A program made the translations under genes and the position numbers. Source: Balneolaceae bacterium (GTDB taxonomy: Bacteria; Bacteroidota; Rhodothermia; Balneolales; Balneolaceae). From it: a DNA stretch of 64,000 bases. Numbering within the stretch: position 1 is the stretch's first letter; every line of letters begins with the position of its first letter. Under the pieces are notes generated by a model that was not told the origin of the DNA, did not search any database, and was given only the letters and a program-made list of their open reading frames with translations. Positions 45,306 to 63,988 of the stretch are shown piece by piece. The stretch is from positions 1-64,000 of the forward strand of contig JAFIFB010000092.1 of assembly GCA_020832285.1 (NCBI GenBank), given 5' to 3'.

Positions 45306-47420
45306 TTATTCATCTTCTTTTGGAAGAAGTGCTTTCCTGGATAAGCGCAGTTTTCCGCCATGTTCAACTTTCAGGAGTTTCACGTCTATTTCATCACCTA
45401 CGGAAAGAACGTCTTCCACCCGCTTCACATGACCGTGATTGATCTCGGAAATATGGAGAAGCCCCTCTTTTCCAGGAACAATTTCCACAAACGCACCATA
45501 TTCCTTAATGGCTTTCACTATGCCTTTGTAAGTTGTACCTTCATCGAGCTGACCGGCAATCGCCTGGACTCTTTTTTTCGCATTTTCAGCTTTTTCGAGG
45601 CTGTCGGCAGAAATGGTGATCTGACCTTTTCCTTGATCATCCTCTTCAATCCAGATTTCGGTGTCGGTCTCTTTCTGTAATGTCTGAATTACTTTTCCAC
45701 CCGGGCCAATCACCGCGCCAATACTGTCACCGTCAATTGTCATCCGGACAAATTGCGGAGCATATTTGGAGAGTGTTTCCCGTGAAGTAGAAATAGTTTC
45801 TGCCATTTTCTCCAGGATGTGCAATCTGCCTTTATGGGCTTGCTCGAGAGCCTCCTCAATAATTTCGAAACTGATTCCCTGAACTTTCATGTCCATCTGT
45901 GTTGCTGTTATTCCATCGGCAGTACCGGCCGTTTTAAAATCCATGTCTCCCATAAAATCTTCTTCGCCCTGGATATCGGAAAGTACCACGGAATTGTTTT
46001 CCCCAACAATCATCCCCATTGCAATACCGGCAACCGGCTTTGGAAGCGGAACCCCGGCATCCATCAGTGCCATCGAGCCACCACAAACAGAGGCCATCGA
46101 AGAGGATCCGTTTGATTCGGTGATATCTGATCTTACCCGGATCACATATCCGAACTCTTCAAAATCAGGCATCACCATTTTTAATGCACGCTGTGCCAGA
46201 TACCCGTGGCCAATTTCTCGCCGTCCGGGCCCACGCATAAAACCGGCTTCTCCCACACAGTATGGAGGGAAATTATAATGCAGCATAAAGGTTTGGTCCT
46301 CTTCATAAAAGAGTGTATCAATACTCTGTGCATCGCGTTTTGTACCAAGCGCTACGGAAACAAGTGCCTGAGTTTCACCCCTTGAAAAAATTGCAGAACC
46401 GTGTGCTCTTGGCAGATATCCGACTTGAGTCCAGATGTCACGGATATCTTCCGGAGACCGTCCATCAATACGCTTTTTGTTTTTCAGAATATTATTTCGG
46501 ACAGCATCCTTCACCATATTACCGAATATGGAAGCTATCTCACCACTGGTTTCTTCGTAACCTTCTTCTTCGGTAATCGTTTCGATGATTTCTTTCTTCA
46601 ATTCGCTTGTTGCACTGCCAAACTCTTCTTTACTGAGCCCCTGGCTAAGTATTTCCTCCAGGCGGTTGCCTGCCTGTGCAGAAACTTTGTCTTCCAGATC
46701 GGAATTTTTTTCCACAGGAGTAAATTCACGTTTTTCAACACCAAATTCTTTTCTGAGTTCTTCCTGAAATTCACAAAGTTTAGCGATGGCTTTGTGGCCT
46801 TCCTTGACGGCTTCAAGCACCTCTTTCTCGCTGATCTCCTTCATCTCTCCTTCAATCATAATCACGCTGTCGGCAGTACCTGCAACAATGATATCAATAT
46901 CGCTTTTTTCAAGCTCATCGATGGTTGGATTAATGACAAAATCGCCGTCAATACGTCCTACCTTTACCTGAGACATAGGGCCGTCGAAGGGAATGGCAGA
47001 TATGTGTGTTGCTGCCGATGCGCCAAAAGCACCCAGGACATCCGCTTCATGCTGCCCGTCTGAGGAATAAACCTGGCATATATATTGAGTCTCATTATAA
47101 TATCCCTGTGGGAAAAGGGGGCGTAAACTGCGGTCAATCAACCGGCTGGCAAGAGTTTCGCCATCAGATGGACGGCCTTCCCTTTTCATAAATCCGCCGG
47201 GAAACTTACCGGCAGCCGTAAAACTTTCTCTCAAATCAACAACCATCGGGAAAAAATCCTGGCCCGGTTTTGCTTCTTTTGCACTTACTACTGTGCAAAG
47301 TACCATTGTATCACCCATTCGTACCATCACTGCACCATCGGCTAATTTGGCCAGACGGCCTGTTTCAACTGAAATGGTTTTACCGGGTGCAAATTCTACA
47401 CTTCTAAAATCTTCTTTCAT
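45306..47420 (-). CDS. pnp: Polyribonucleotide nucleotidyltransferase (PNPase)
   Basis: This 704-residue 3'-5' phosphorolytic exoribonuclease of the RNA degradosome type has two RNase PH domains (about 10-225 and 300-545; FMKREGRPSDGE and FPPYCVGEAGFMRGPGRREIGHG), then KH (MTIDGDSIGAVIGPGGKVIQ) and S1 (EGTTYKGIVKAIKEYGAFVE). The order and length are normal. It lies 130 bp after rpsO with a terminator between them, as in many bacteria where pnp is cut or attenuated from the rpsO transcript. Confidence 0.98.
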   Translation of the reverse strand: MKEDFRSVEFAPGKTISVETGRLAKLADGAVMVRMGDTMVLCTVVSAKEAKPGQDFFPMVVDLRESFTAAGKFPGGFMKREGRPSDGETLASRLIDRSLRPLFPQGYYNETQYICQVYSSDGQHEADVLGAFGASAATHISAIPFDGPMSQVKVGRIDGDFVINPTIDELEKSDIDIIVAGTADSVIMIEGEMKEISEKEVLEAVKEGHKAIAKLCEFQEELRKEFGVEKREFTPVEKNSDLEDKVSAQAGNRLEEILSQGLSKEEFGSATSELKKEIIETITEEEGYEETSGEIASIFGNMVKDAVRNNILKNKKRIDGRSPEDIRDIWTQVGYLPRAHGSAIFSRGETQALVSVALGTKRDAQSIDTLFYEEDQTFMLHYNFPPYCVGEAGFMRGPGRREIGHGYLAQRALKMVMPDFEEFGYVIRVRSDITESNGSSSMASVCGGSMALMDAGVPLPKPVAGIAMGMIVGENNSVVLSDIQGEEDFMGDMDFKTAGTADGITATQMDMKVQGISFEIIEEALEQAHKGRLHILEKMAETISTSRETLSKYAPQFVRMTIDGDSIGAVIGPGGKVIQTLQKETDTEIWIEEDDQGKGQITISADSLEKAENAKKRVQAIAGQLDEGTTYKGIVKAIKEYGAFVEIVPGKEGLLHISEINHGHVKRVEDVLSVGDEIDVKLLKVEHGGKLRLSRKALLPKEDE

Positions 47421-59109: not shown

Positions 59110-60885
59110 TTATGATCCCACGACCTGTTCTTTGTATTGTAACTCATAGAGCTTTCGATAAATTCCACCTTCTTTCTCGATCAGTTCTTGATGAGGGCCG
59201 GTTTCTCTAATTTCTCCTTTGTGCATAACCAGGATTCTATCAGCTCCCTGAATCGTCGAAAGCCTGTGCGCAATCACAATGGAGGTTCTCCCCTTCATCA
59301 TCCGCTCACAAGCTTTTGCTACAAGCTCTTCGGTTTCCGAATCCACACTTGATGTGGCTTCATCTAAAATTAAAATTTTTGGATCATAAACCATAGCCCT
59401 TACGAAACAAATTAATTGCCTCTGTCCCATTGACAACGAAGCACCGCGCTCCCGCAAAATATAATCGTAGCTTCCGGGAAGCTTTTTAATAAAATGATGC
59501 GCTTCCACCTCTTTTGAGGCTTTAATTACCTGTTCCCTGGTAATGTTATCGTTGCCGAGGGTAATATTGTCGTGAACAGTACCTGAAAATAGTGCATTAT
59601 CCTGTAATACCAGTCCAAAGTTCGATCTCAGCTCTTTTAACGAAAGATCTTTAATATTGATCCCATCTAATAAAATTTCTCCTTTCCGGATATCGTAATA
59701 ACGCAATAACAGATTGATAAGTGTGGATTTTCCTGCACCGGTCGCTCCCACAACAGCAAGCAGTTCACCGGATTCGGCTGTAAATGATACATTTTTAATG
59801 ATCTGTTCCTGATCTTCGTTGTAGCGAAAATCAACATTCCTGAACTCTATTCTGCCGGATATTTTTCCAGGGGATACCGGATTCTTGGTTTCAATGACTT
59901 TATTTGGGGTATCCAGTACGTTAAATATCCGTTCGGAAGATGCCAGGGCAGATTGCAGGGTATTATATTTTTCTGAGAGCCCTCGAATAGGGTTAAAAAA
60001 CTGGCGCACATATTGTATAAATGCCAGAAGAACACCAAAGGTCACCTGGTCCATCAGTGCGCGTGCGCCCCCATACCAAACCACAAGGGCCATTGCAAGA
60101 CTGGCCAGTACTTCCACCAGCGGCCAGAATATTGAAAAGTAAAAGATTGTTTTCAGATGGGCATTGCGATGATCGGCATTAATGGATTCAAAACGTTCTT
60201 TCTGTTTTTCTTCCCTGTTAAAGAGCTGTACAATGGCCATGCCGCTGATGTGTTCCTGCACAAACGAGTTTAATCTTGCAATCTGATCCCGGACATTCAA
60301 AAAAGCCACTCTCACCTTTCCCTTGAACCAGAATGTGGCATAAAACAGTAAGGGAAGCACCAGAATGGCAATAATGGTCAGTTCCCAGCTCATCACAAGC
60401 ATAAAGTAGAGAATGAAAAATATCCTGAACAGATCGCCGATCATGTTAACGATACCATCAGACAGCAGCTCGCTCAGTGCTTCAATATCACTTGTGGTCC
60501 TCGTGATAAGCCGTCCGATGGGATTTTTATCAAAAAACTGGACGTGAAGAGACTGTATTTTTTCAAAAACAGAATTTCGCAGGCTAAATAGCACACCCTG
60601 ACCAAACCACCGCGTGATGTAGGTATTCAGAATTAGTATTACAAACTCACCGAGCAGTGCAAAGCCAAGCAAGAAAATAATCCAGATAAGCCCGTCAACA
60701 TCGCCAATGGCAATGTAATCGTCCACAGCCACCTGTGTGAGCTTGGGCCTCACCGTTCCGAGGAAAGCGGCAGCGAGGGTAAGTATGATGGCAAAAACCG
60801 CCCACCAACGATAAGGTTTAAAGAAGTAATAAAGCCGCCGAATCAGTACAGAATCGGCGGCTTCAGTTTTTTTTTGTTGACTCAA
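59110..60885 (-). CDS. ABC half-exporter, subunit with intact Walker B
   Basis: This 591-residue type IV ABC exporter half has a six-helix TM domain (about 30-320) and an NBD (about 345-585). Walker A is GATGAGKST, Walker B ILILDE with Glu509, and the H-loop is IVIAHR. The signature is LSMGQ (484-488), so the second Gly of LSGGQ is Met. The intact Walker B and altered signature complement the partner at 62189-63988. The C-terminus is normal. Confidence 0.95.
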   Translation of the reverse strand: MSQQKKTEAADSVLIRRLYYFFKPYRWWAVFAIILTLAAAFLGTVRPKLTQVAVDDYIAIGDVDGLIWIIFLLGFALLGEFVILILNTYITRWFGQGVLFSLRNSVFEKIQSLHVQFFDKNPIGRLITRTTSDIEALSELLSDGIVNMIGDLFRIFFILYFMLVMSWELTIIAILVLPLLFYATFWFKGKVRVAFLNVRDQIARLNSFVQEHISGMAIVQLFNREEKQKERFESINADHRNAHLKTIFYFSIFWPLVEVLASLAMALVVWYGGARALMDQVTFGVLLAFIQYVRQFFNPIRGLSEKYNTLQSALASSERIFNVLDTPNKVIETKNPVSPGKISGRIEFRNVDFRYNEDQEQIIKNVSFTAESGELLAVVGATGAGKSTLINLLLRYYDIRKGEILLDGINIKDLSLKELRSNFGLVLQDNALFSGTVHDNITLGNDNITREQVIKASKEVEAHHFIKKLPGSYDYILRERGASLSMGQRQLICFVRAMVYDPKILILDEATSSVDSETEELVAKACERMMKGRTSIVIAHRLSTIQGADRILVMHKGEIRETGPHQELIEKEGGIYRKLYELQYKEQVVGS

Positions 60886-60912: not shown

Positions 60913-62121
60913 TTAAAAACGGTCGAAGTTATCGAAAGGAGTTCTTGGGGTAATATGTTTTGGAGCCCTTGAACTTCCTCTGTTATCGTTGTTGTCATTA
61001 TTTCTTCGTTCAGGCCGTTTTCTTCTGCGTTCACCGGAATCATCACGGCTTCGGCTTCTTCGTTCAGGAGAACTCTTTCTTTTCCTGAAGCGTTTACCGC
61101 TGCTCTTATCGGATTTCCTTCGTTTGGGCTTACTCGATGAAGAAGACTTATTGTCATCCACCTCCTTAATAAACACTTTCTGCTGAACTATGCCTTTTTC
61201 CTGCGACGGATTGGTATATATTGGGCGAAGTTCCGTGGCAAGCCATGCGGGGAAAAACTTGGCCCTTGCCTCCCGCAGTAACACAAACGGGTTGGTGTAT
61301 CGCGCAGAAAAATGGCCTATCACCAGAAGTTTTGTCTGTGCTTCATTGGCAACCCGCGCTGCATCGCCCGATGTGGAGTGTCCTGTTTCGGCAGCTTTCT
61401 CGGCCAGAGACTCACTAAATGTAGCTTCGTGATACAGGATATTGGTGTTCATTGCCAGTTTTACTGCATTGGGACAATACTTTGTATCCGTAATGTAGGC
61501 AAAACTGTCGCCGGGACGGGGATGTCCTACGATATCGTATGATTTTACTATAGTTCCGTCTTCAAGTTCAAGATCTTCACCAGCTTTGAGAGCTTTAAAC
61601 TGCTCATCTTCGGTAATGCCAAGCGATTGAGCTTTATCGGCATCTACCTTACCCGGTTTATCTTTTTCCTGGAAACGGAAACCCATACAAAATGAAGTAT
61701 GGTTCAGCGGACGCGCTTCCACATAATATTCTTCTTCATCCACCACCTTTTGAGACTCAAAATCTTCTTTGACTTCAACAAATTTAAGGTCGAAATTCAG
61801 ATCGATATTCGCGAAATTAAGATTCCATTCCACGAATTTTTTAATTCCTTTCGGTCCCACGATTGTAAGTGCTTTCTCCCGTCTTTGTAATTGAAGGGTT
61901 GAAATAAGTCCCAACAAGCCTGAAAAATGATCAACATCAAAATGGCTGATGAAGATATTTTCTATTTTAGAGCGTTTTAAGCCGGCCTGTAACATCCGCA
62001 TTTGAGCATTTTCACCGCAATCGAAAAGGTGAACATCACCTTCCCGCCAAAGTGCAACGGATGGTAAATGTCTGACTGCTGTTGGTGTTGCTGATGCAAC
62101 ACCCAAGGGTACAATAATCAT
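60913..62121 (-). CDS. rnz: RNase Z-like protein with HxDxDH motif and basic tail
   Basis: This 402-residue metallo-beta-lactamase-fold protein has the RNase Z order of motifs: DCGENAQMRMLQAGLK, the metal loop, LNHTSFCMGFRF, TDTKYCPNAVKLA, HEATF and GHFSARYTNP. The metal loop reads SH60-F-D62-V-D64-H65-FSGL, with Asp where tRNase Z enzymes have the second His (HLHGDH). The final 80 or so residues (about 321-402) are a Ser/Arg/Lys/Asp-rich tail (KRRKSDK..., RKRKSSPERRSRSR) of RNA-binding character. Processing of tRNA 3' ends is expected. It lies between two ABC exporter genes. Confidence 0.88.
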   Translation of the reverse strand: MIIVPLGVASATPTAVRHLPSVALWREGDVHLFDCGENAQMRMLQAGLKRSKIENIFISHFDVDHFSGLLGLISTLQLQRREKALTIVGPKGIKKFVEWNLNFANIDLNFDLKFVEVKEDFESQKVVDEEEYYVEARPLNHTSFCMGFRFQEKDKPGKVDADKAQSLGITEDEQFKALKAGEDLELEDGTIVKSYDIVGHPRPGDSFAYITDTKYCPNAVKLAMNTNILYHEATFSESLAEKAAETGHSTSGDAARVANEAQTKLLVIGHFSARYTNPFVLLREARAKFFPAWLATELRPIYTNPSQEKGIVQQKVFIKEVDDNKSSSSSKPKRRKSDKSSGKRFRKRKSSPERRSRSRDDSGERRRKRPERRNNDNNDNRGSSRAPKHITPRTPFDNFDRF

Positions 62122-62188: not shown

Positions 62189-63988
62189 TTATATTTGAGC
62201 CAATTCTTGTTCGAGTAATTGTTTACGATACATGTCGGTGTAACGTCCTTTACCTTCGATTAATTCGTTATGAGTTCCTTCCTCTACTATGCAACCATTT
62301 TCAATATAAAAAATTGTATCGGCGTTCTTAACCGTAGAAATTCTGTGCGAAATCATGATTGCGGTTTTATGAGCCAGCTTTACACGTAAATGTTCTAAAA
62401 TGGCATCTTCAGTTTTTGTATCAACCGCACTTAAAGAATCATCGAAAATAACGATTGAGGGCTCTTTTATCATTGCCCTGGCAATGGCCGTTCGTTGTTT
62501 TTGTCCACCTGAGAGAGTAATGCCTCTTTCACCTACAAGTGTCTCAAATTTTTTCTCAAAATCCAAAATATTCTCTAAAACCTGGGCATTTTCTGCAGCT
62601 TCTTCAATCTCTTCTATAGAGGGTTCCTCACGCCCAAAGGCGATGTTCTCTTTAATCGTGGTTGAAAACAAAAATGTTTCCTGCGGAACATAGCCTATCG
62701 ATCTCCTTAGATGAGTCAAATTCCACTCTTTTATATTTTTCCCGTCAATCAGTACTTCCCCTTCAGTTGAATCAAAAAGCCGGGGTATCAGATTCACCAG
62801 TGTGGTTTTACCCGACCCGGTTCGTCCAACAAATGCAATGTTACTCCCTGCCTTAATTTTAAAACTTACATTTTTTAATGCATATTCATCTGAACCGGGA
62901 TATTTAAAGCTCACATTTCTGAATTCGATATCTCCTTTAATATGCGGCAGCCCGGAAACTTCCGGATCTTTGTCTTCAATTTCCAATGGTTCGTTCAGCA
63001 TCGAATCAATCCTTTCCCAGGAAGCCAGTGATTTTTGAAGTGTGTTTACCGTATAACCCAGTGATGCCACCGGCCAGGTAAGATAAGCGACATAAATTAC
63101 AAACTCTGCAATGTTTCCAACCGTAATCAGTCCGTCAATAACCATAATACCACCACGCCATACAACAATAACTACTGATATACCGATCAACAGATTCAGT
63201 GTGGGATGAAAAAGAGATTCAACGAGGTCTAATCTGAGCTTTTTATTCCGGTATTCGTCACTTTCTTTCTCGAACCTTTTCTGCTCGTAATCGGTGCGAT
63301 TATAAGCTTTGATCAGGCGAATACTGCTAAATGTTTCCTGTGCCCTGCCAGCAATCCTGGAATACTGTTCCTGGATAATCAGCTGATATTTATTGATGAA
63401 ACCACTGACCCAATAGGCAAATGCAGAGAGGAACGGAAGTGGCAGCAGTGCCCAGAAGGTGAGTACCGGATTTACGATTAGCATCATTGTAATAATAAAA
63501 CCTGCTCTTGTGAAAGTGTTCACGGTATACATCAATACTGGCCCAAAATACTCCCGCACACGGGCAACATCTTCGGTGGCACGAACATAAATTTCCCCTG
63601 TCCGGTTTTCCGCAAAATAACGCTGCGGAAGACGGAGCAGTTTATCCATGATTTTGTTCCGGATATCGAACTCAATTTTACGAGAGCTAACAATCAGCGT
63701 CTGCCGGGTTGCAAACAACAACACCCCGTAAAGTACTACCGTACCAATAAGCAGAAATGAGTTCCAGGCGAGAATCGCACCGGCCTCACTATGGAACAAT
63801 ATATTGAAAAGTGAATCGAATTCTCCCTGGTACTGCTCACCGAGATTCTCAACCTGGTCCATCGTATCACGAATCAAAACAGGTATCCATATCAAAAAGA
63901 AGTTGGCTCCTGTCAGGAACAAAGCCCCCAGAAGGATGATCCCTTTGTATTTTCGTAAATACTTATTTAACTCTTTTATGGAGTCCAC
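62189..63988 (-). CDS. ABC half-exporter, subunit with degenerate Walker B (5' end uncertain)
   Basis: This 599-residue half-exporter has a TM domain (about 15-320) and an NBD (about 345-590). Walker A is GRTGSGKTT, the signature is a normal LSGGQ, the H-loop is IMISHR, and Walker B reads IVIFDD, with Asp517 in place of the catalytic Glu. The listed start is a GTG. The same frame stays open upstream to the window edge, so an ATG beyond position 64000 is quite possible. The motif pattern predicts heterodimerisation with the half-exporter at 59110-60885. Confidence 0.92.
   Translation of the reverse strand: MDSIKELNKYLRKYKGIILLGALFLTGANFFLIWIPVLIRDTMDQVENLGEQYQGEFDSLFNILFHSEAGAILAWNSFLLIGTVVLYGVLLFATRQTLIVSSRKIEFDIRNKIMDKLLRLPQRYFAENRTGEIYVRATEDVARVREYFGPVLMYTVNTFTRAGFIITMMLIVNPVLTFWALLPLPFLSAFAYWVSGFINKYQLIIQEQYSRIAGRAQETFSSIRLIKAYNRTDYEQKRFEKESDEYRNKKLRLDLVESLFHPTLNLLIGISVVIVVWRGGIMVIDGLITVGNIAEFVIYVAYLTWPVASLGYTVNTLQKSLASWERIDSMLNEPLEIEDKDPEVSGLPHIKGDIEFRNVSFKYPGSDEYALKNVSFKIKAGSNIAFVGRTGSGKTTLVNLIPRLFDSTEGEVLIDGKNIKEWNLTHLRRSIGYVPQETFLFSTTIKENIAFGREEPSIEEIEEAAENAQVLENILDFEKKFETLVGERGITLSGGQKQRTAIARAMIKEPSIVIFDDSLSAVDTKTEDAILEHLRVKLAHKTAIMISHRISTVKNADTIFYIENGCIVEEGTHNELIEGKGRYTDMYRKQLLEQELAQI

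Follow-up and report, generated by a model that had tools for sequence, protein, structure and literature searches.

Every RNase Z sequence that we aligned from the order Balneolales carries an aspartate in place of the second histidine of the HxHxDH metal motif. Position 62 is Asp in 96/96 non-redundant Balneolales sequences, drawn from five families, and His in all 73 sequences retrieved from elsewhere in the class and phylum (alignment, n=169). We consider it probable that Balneolales rely on this one ortholog as their RNase Z and that the enzyme is active, with an Asp metal-1 site that brings a manganese-type shift in metal preference, a basic linker and a tip that docks on a partner. A metal ligand of a probably essential, single-copy tRNA enzyme has changed once and has then been fixed through an order. 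As sister families keep the old His state at the same locus, this would offer a clean natural experiment on metal change in a two-metal nuclease, open to probing at a single residue (D62H, or the reverse exchange in a sister enzyme). The conserved tip, in turn, might serve as a specific handle on a partner of bacterial RNase Z. The order-wide occurrence of HxDxDH, the accompanying G38N exchange and the conserved tip were all missed in the initial annotation of the window, by which we mean the whole stretch of 64,000 nucleotides analysed.

Identity of the rnz gene

The gene and the two parts of its catalytic region are located as follows.

60913–62121, minus strand: rnz gene, RNase Z, 402 amino acids, ATG start
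61171–62121, minus strand: catalytic domain, residues 1–317
61507–61665, minus strand: flexible tRNA-binding arm (exosite), residues 153–205, conserved and aligned to the arm of Bacillus subtilis RNase Z

The protein encoded by this Balneolaceae ORF (IFISHFDVDHFSG) scored 308 bits against TIGR02651 (RNase_Z), above the curated equivalog cut-off of 293, and its nearest solved structures by sequence are the RNase Z enzymes of B. subtilis and Escherichia coli (1y44, 2fk6 and 2cbn). The ComEC family was absent from its NCBIfam and Pfam matches. An AlphaFold2 model, calculated as a metal-free monomer from 36 sequences of one order, was well ordered except for residues 9–16 and those beyond approximately residue 309. 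The predicted fold, flexible arm included, matched that of the B. subtilis RNase Z–tRNA complex (4gcw) with a Z score of 35.8 and an rmsd of 2.3 over 300 residues, at 35% identity. These data confirm that the ORF is a genuine RNase Z.

Fold, domain length, arm, HEAT and HST motifs and the remaining metal ligands are all held in common with the short bacterial RNase Z enzymes (TIGR02651; B. subtilis Rnz, 1y44, 2fk6 and 4gcw; E. coli RNase BN/ZipD, 2cbn). These, however, have HxHxDH and neither tail nor conserved tip, whereas the Balneolales enzyme has HxDxDH together with both. Loss of the Gly-Pro block of the exosite was considered as a further special trait and was discarded, as this block also varies among the sister families. 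A viral origin of rnz was likewise set aside, a scan of viral contigs having given no relative.

An aspartate in the metal motif and its accompanying change

Two positions separate the Balneolales enzymes from those of the other families.

61927–61944, minus strand: metal motif H60-F-D62-V-D64-H65 (HxDxDH, not HxHxDH)
62008–62010, minus strand: N38 after DCGE, the second order-specific switch (Gly or Ala elsewhere)

Within Balneolales the loop occurs as HFDVDH, HFDTDH, HFDMDH, HFDIDH, HLDGDH or HMDGDH, and the Asp is constant throughout, so that the canonical HxHxDH of RNase Z is replaced by HxDxDH in all 96 sequences. No reversion of D62 was seen among them, though one base change would suffice. 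Residues H60, D64, H65, H141, D212, H270, H231 and H248 are invariant in the alignment, and all seven ligand positions of the Balneolales enzymes are still occupied by metal-capable residues. Outside the metal loop the DCGE, H141, D212, HEATF, GHST and GHFSARY blocks are present, and the initial annotation was right to describe the other RNase Z motifs as intact. The exchange of Gly38 for Asn accompanies D62, being found in 95/96 Balneolales sequences and in 0/73 of the others, which have Gly (71) or Ala (2) at this position.

Given that D62 is common to 96/96 homologues and that the terminal 13 residues are nearly invariant, a one-off mutation, chance or a sequencing error can be dismissed. 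The motif had been called unusual for RNase Z, and this is borne out by its occurrence in 0/73 relatives outside Balneolales in a survey confined to Bacteroidota. The possibility had also been raised that it is universal in its lineage and already described. The first half of this is correct (96/96), but we found no published description of HxDxDH in RNase Z in the literature searched, where most subscription papers were missing.

Gene order and single origin of the Asp form

In a tree of 122 rows, built by a quick method and with the motif column itself included, the Asp-form rnz sequences formed one clade (support 100; branch length 0.56 changes per column), and the Asp/His pattern is explained by a single change. 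The gene lies between two ABC exporter genes, both of which are also its neighbours at other Balneolales loci and in sister families.

62189–63988, minus strand: upstream ABC exporter gene
59110–60885, minus strand: downstream ABC exporter gene

Both exporter genes flank rnz in the 80 Balneolales loci compared, except at contig ends, although on some short contigs the second ABC match is merely cross-similarity to the other exporter. The same ABC–rnz–ABC order surrounds the HxHxDH rnz of the sister families f6, f7 and f12 and that of f20, but is absent around rnz of the f29 type. This shared position indicates that the Balneolales gene is an ortholog and that it was altered in place rather than replaced; together with the tree, it rules out horizontal replacement or paralogy. 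Its locus is orthologous and its score exceeds the TIGR02651 cut-off, and we therefore count the protein, despite its HxDxDH motif, among the RNase Z enzymes, though as a variant rather than a canonical one. The flanking of rnz by ABC exporters is an old conserved gene order, the reason for which is not obvious.

Comparison with the ComEC nuclease and the proposed change in metal use

In B. subtilis RNase Z, His65 binds metal 1, and we take position 62 of the Balneolales enzyme to be its equivalent. Asp at the second motif position is a feature of the β-lactamase-like nuclease of ComEC, as the initial annotation had pointed out, and H60, D62, D64 and H65 match H598, D600, D602 and H603 of the Moorella protein, which binds two Mn2+ ions (PDB 9IC4) and is Mn2+-dependent (PMC12455585). 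The likeness is one of motif, not of family or architecture: ComEC is a DNA nuclease within a membrane protein and forms a separate family, to which the Balneolales RNase Z does not belong. The D600A variant of ComEC was only approx. 5-fold slower, whereas most other ligand mutants were virtually inactive (PMC12455585), and the H65A variant of B. subtilis RNase Z is reported, as cited in PMC12663964, to have residual activity. Taken together, these two mutants make this position look like the most permissive of the ligands.

On this basis, we propose that in the stem of Balneolales the second His of HxHxDH, a metal-1 ligand, became Asp through one base change, and that Gly38 was exchanged for Asn together with it. 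D62 would then act as a carboxylate ligand of metal 1, as has been proposed for D600 of the ComEC nuclease, and would move the metal preference away from Zn2+ and towards a harder ion, for example Mn2+. D64 would still serve as general base for the cut behind the discriminator base, which would also still use the conserved arm and the HEAT and HST elements. A changed metal use, as the initial annotation suggested, is plausible in this light; the preference for Mn2+ is proposed by analogy with ComEC, one relative in which Asp at this position accompanies Mn2+ use. The ComEC protein of the same genome, encoded elsewhere (L004:1234-3273, contig C7), has the loop SHPHADH, i.e. HxHxDH. Motif and family are thus not strictly coupled, and we treat the link between motif and metal as a hypothesis. 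The pairing of motifs in this genome is the reverse of that formed by Moorella ComEC and canonical RNase Z.

It is also possible, if rather unlikely, that Asp replaced His neutrally, without any change in metal or function, and that the tail merely adds RNA affinity to an otherwise ordinary RNase Z. The intact state of all the remaining motifs would fit such a swap, as would the presence of both residues at this place in the superfamily, with Asp in Moorella ComEC (PMC12455585) and His in the ComEC of this genome. Against it stand the lack of a single reversion in 96 sequences, although one base change would be enough, the joint switch at residue 38 and the strong protein-level constraint on the tip.

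The C-terminal tail and its conserved tip

The region following the catalytic domain consists of a variable tail and a short terminal segment.

60916–61170, minus strand: disordered R/S/K/D/N-rich tail, residues 318–402
60916–60954, minus strand: conserved C-terminal tip ITPRTPFDNFDRF, residues 390–402

The tail of the 402-residue protein comprises 85 amino acids, with 19 Arg, 15 Ser and 11 Lys, in good agreement with the Ser/Arg/Lys-rich extension of approx. 80 residues first noted. Beyond approximately residue 317, Balneolales enzymes have 75–231 amino acids (median 103) and other RNase Z proteins 14 or fewer. The Balneolales tails are rich in Arg, Ser, Gly, Asp, Lys and Asn with a positive net charge. 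In the model the tail had pLDDT values of 33–39, and the tip (approx. 35–39) was unplaced in the monomer.

Despite the variable length, the tails end in a 13-residue consensus, ITPRTPFDDFDRF-COOH. Column entropy, still 2.5 bits at position −14, drops below 1.35 bits at −13, where it is 0.43, and is 0 at both Arg −10 and Arg −2. Fixed residues of the tip show synonymous codon variation, with, for example, all six Arg codons at −2, which indicates selection on the peptide and makes it unlikely that overlapping DNA signals account for the conservation. Counted by a DNA pattern of the last seven residues plus stop, the tip was found in 78/85 Balneolales genomes and in 0/80 other genomes of the class. 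The seven misses all fall in one genus (g11), and the Balneola sequences read have an altered tip, SSYRDQDRF. Two proteins (L087 and L119), from short contigs or truncated frames, end without it. No other protein of the window's genome carried the tip at up to two mismatches, and the idea of a tag shared with other proteins of this genome was dropped. In one genome a further end of this kind, FADFDRF-stop, lies away from rnz (G137:C34:18576-18599); it has one mismatch to the tip pattern and may be either chance or a second tip-bearing protein.

The combination of linker lengths, entropy and pLDDT values resembles the design of the C-terminal tail of SSB, in which a variable disordered linker is followed by a short conserved acidic tip, DFDDDIPF, which ends in Phe and docks into partner pockets (PMC10164576). 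SSB is an unrelated protein, and the RNase Z tip, which likewise closes with Phe, ends in DRF, with an ITPR block upstream. By this analogy the tip looks like a protein-docking motif. We propose that the stem of Balneolales also gained the disordered basic tail with its 13-residue acidic-aromatic tip, that the tip would recruit RNase Z to a partner protein in the manner of the SSB tip, and that the basic linker would bind RNA weakly and tether the tip. Changed RNA partners, as put forward in the initial annotation, would cover just half of what the tail shows, the conserved part being a C-terminal tip that resembles a protein-docking motif. A more far-reaching version, in which the essential tRNA 3′ endonuclease of Balneolales would now be a Mn (or Fe) enzyme as a result of the His-to-Asp swap and would dock by its tip into a multi-enzyme tRNA-processing complex, we consider unlikely.

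The main alternative to partner docking is self-contact in a dimer, the tail or tip acting on the enzyme itself, for example as an autoinhibitor or a substrate gate. RNase Z works as a dimer, whereas our model is a monomer. A precedent is given by the tip of SSB, which also binds its own OB domain (PMC10164576). The monomer model, however, gave no ordered placement of the tip, and we regard a self-acting tip, which concerns the tip only and is compatible with the proposed metal site, as unlikely.

Uniqueness of rnz and tRNA 3′ processing

A check for a second, canonical rnz had been advised, and none was found near the TIGR02651 cut-off in this 99% complete genome. The runner-up was an MBL hydrolase with 56 bits (next-best MBL proteins 42–56, against a cut-off of 293), and the metallo-β-lactamase matches examined as possible second copies scored best as MBL hydrolase, PRK00685 hydrolase, ComEC or lactonases. 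CCA was not encoded in 28/30 distinct tRNA genes sampled, one candidate CCA-adding enzyme is present, and no RNase PH above its cut-off was found in the genome. A weak RNase PH match in the window (46758–47357, minus strand) lies within an open frame of 716 codons, probably that of PNPase.

With a sole rnz, tRNA genes lacking CCA, a CCA-adding candidate and no RNase PH over its cut-off, the tRNA 3′ ends most likely rely on RNase Z. The Balneolales protein very probably works as an active tRNase Z, cleavage 3′ of the discriminator base having indirect support in the CCA-less tRNA genes, and the single-copy gene is probably essential. The change in substrate range put forward in the initial annotation is not indicated: the arm that binds tRNA is retained, as are HEAT and HST, and with these tRNA genes the cell requires a tRNase Z.

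That tRNase activity has been lost in favour of another phosphodiester substrate (e.g. deAMPylation), with another enzyme making the tRNA 3′ ends, would be in keeping with a second activity of this kind described for RNase Z in PMC12663964 and with the other route that exists in the class (see below), but is very improbable in view of the single rnz, the CCA-less tRNA genes, the lack of RNase PH over cut-off, the conservation of the arm and of the HEAT and HST motifs, and the low scores of the next-best MBL proteins.

Five families of the class (f8, f10, f15, f18 and f19; e.g. G047, G057, G077, G105 and G109) had no match to TIGR02651 at E≤1e-30. Even so, CCA is absent from most of the tRNA genes sampled in them as well, and a different enzyme must therefore serve there.
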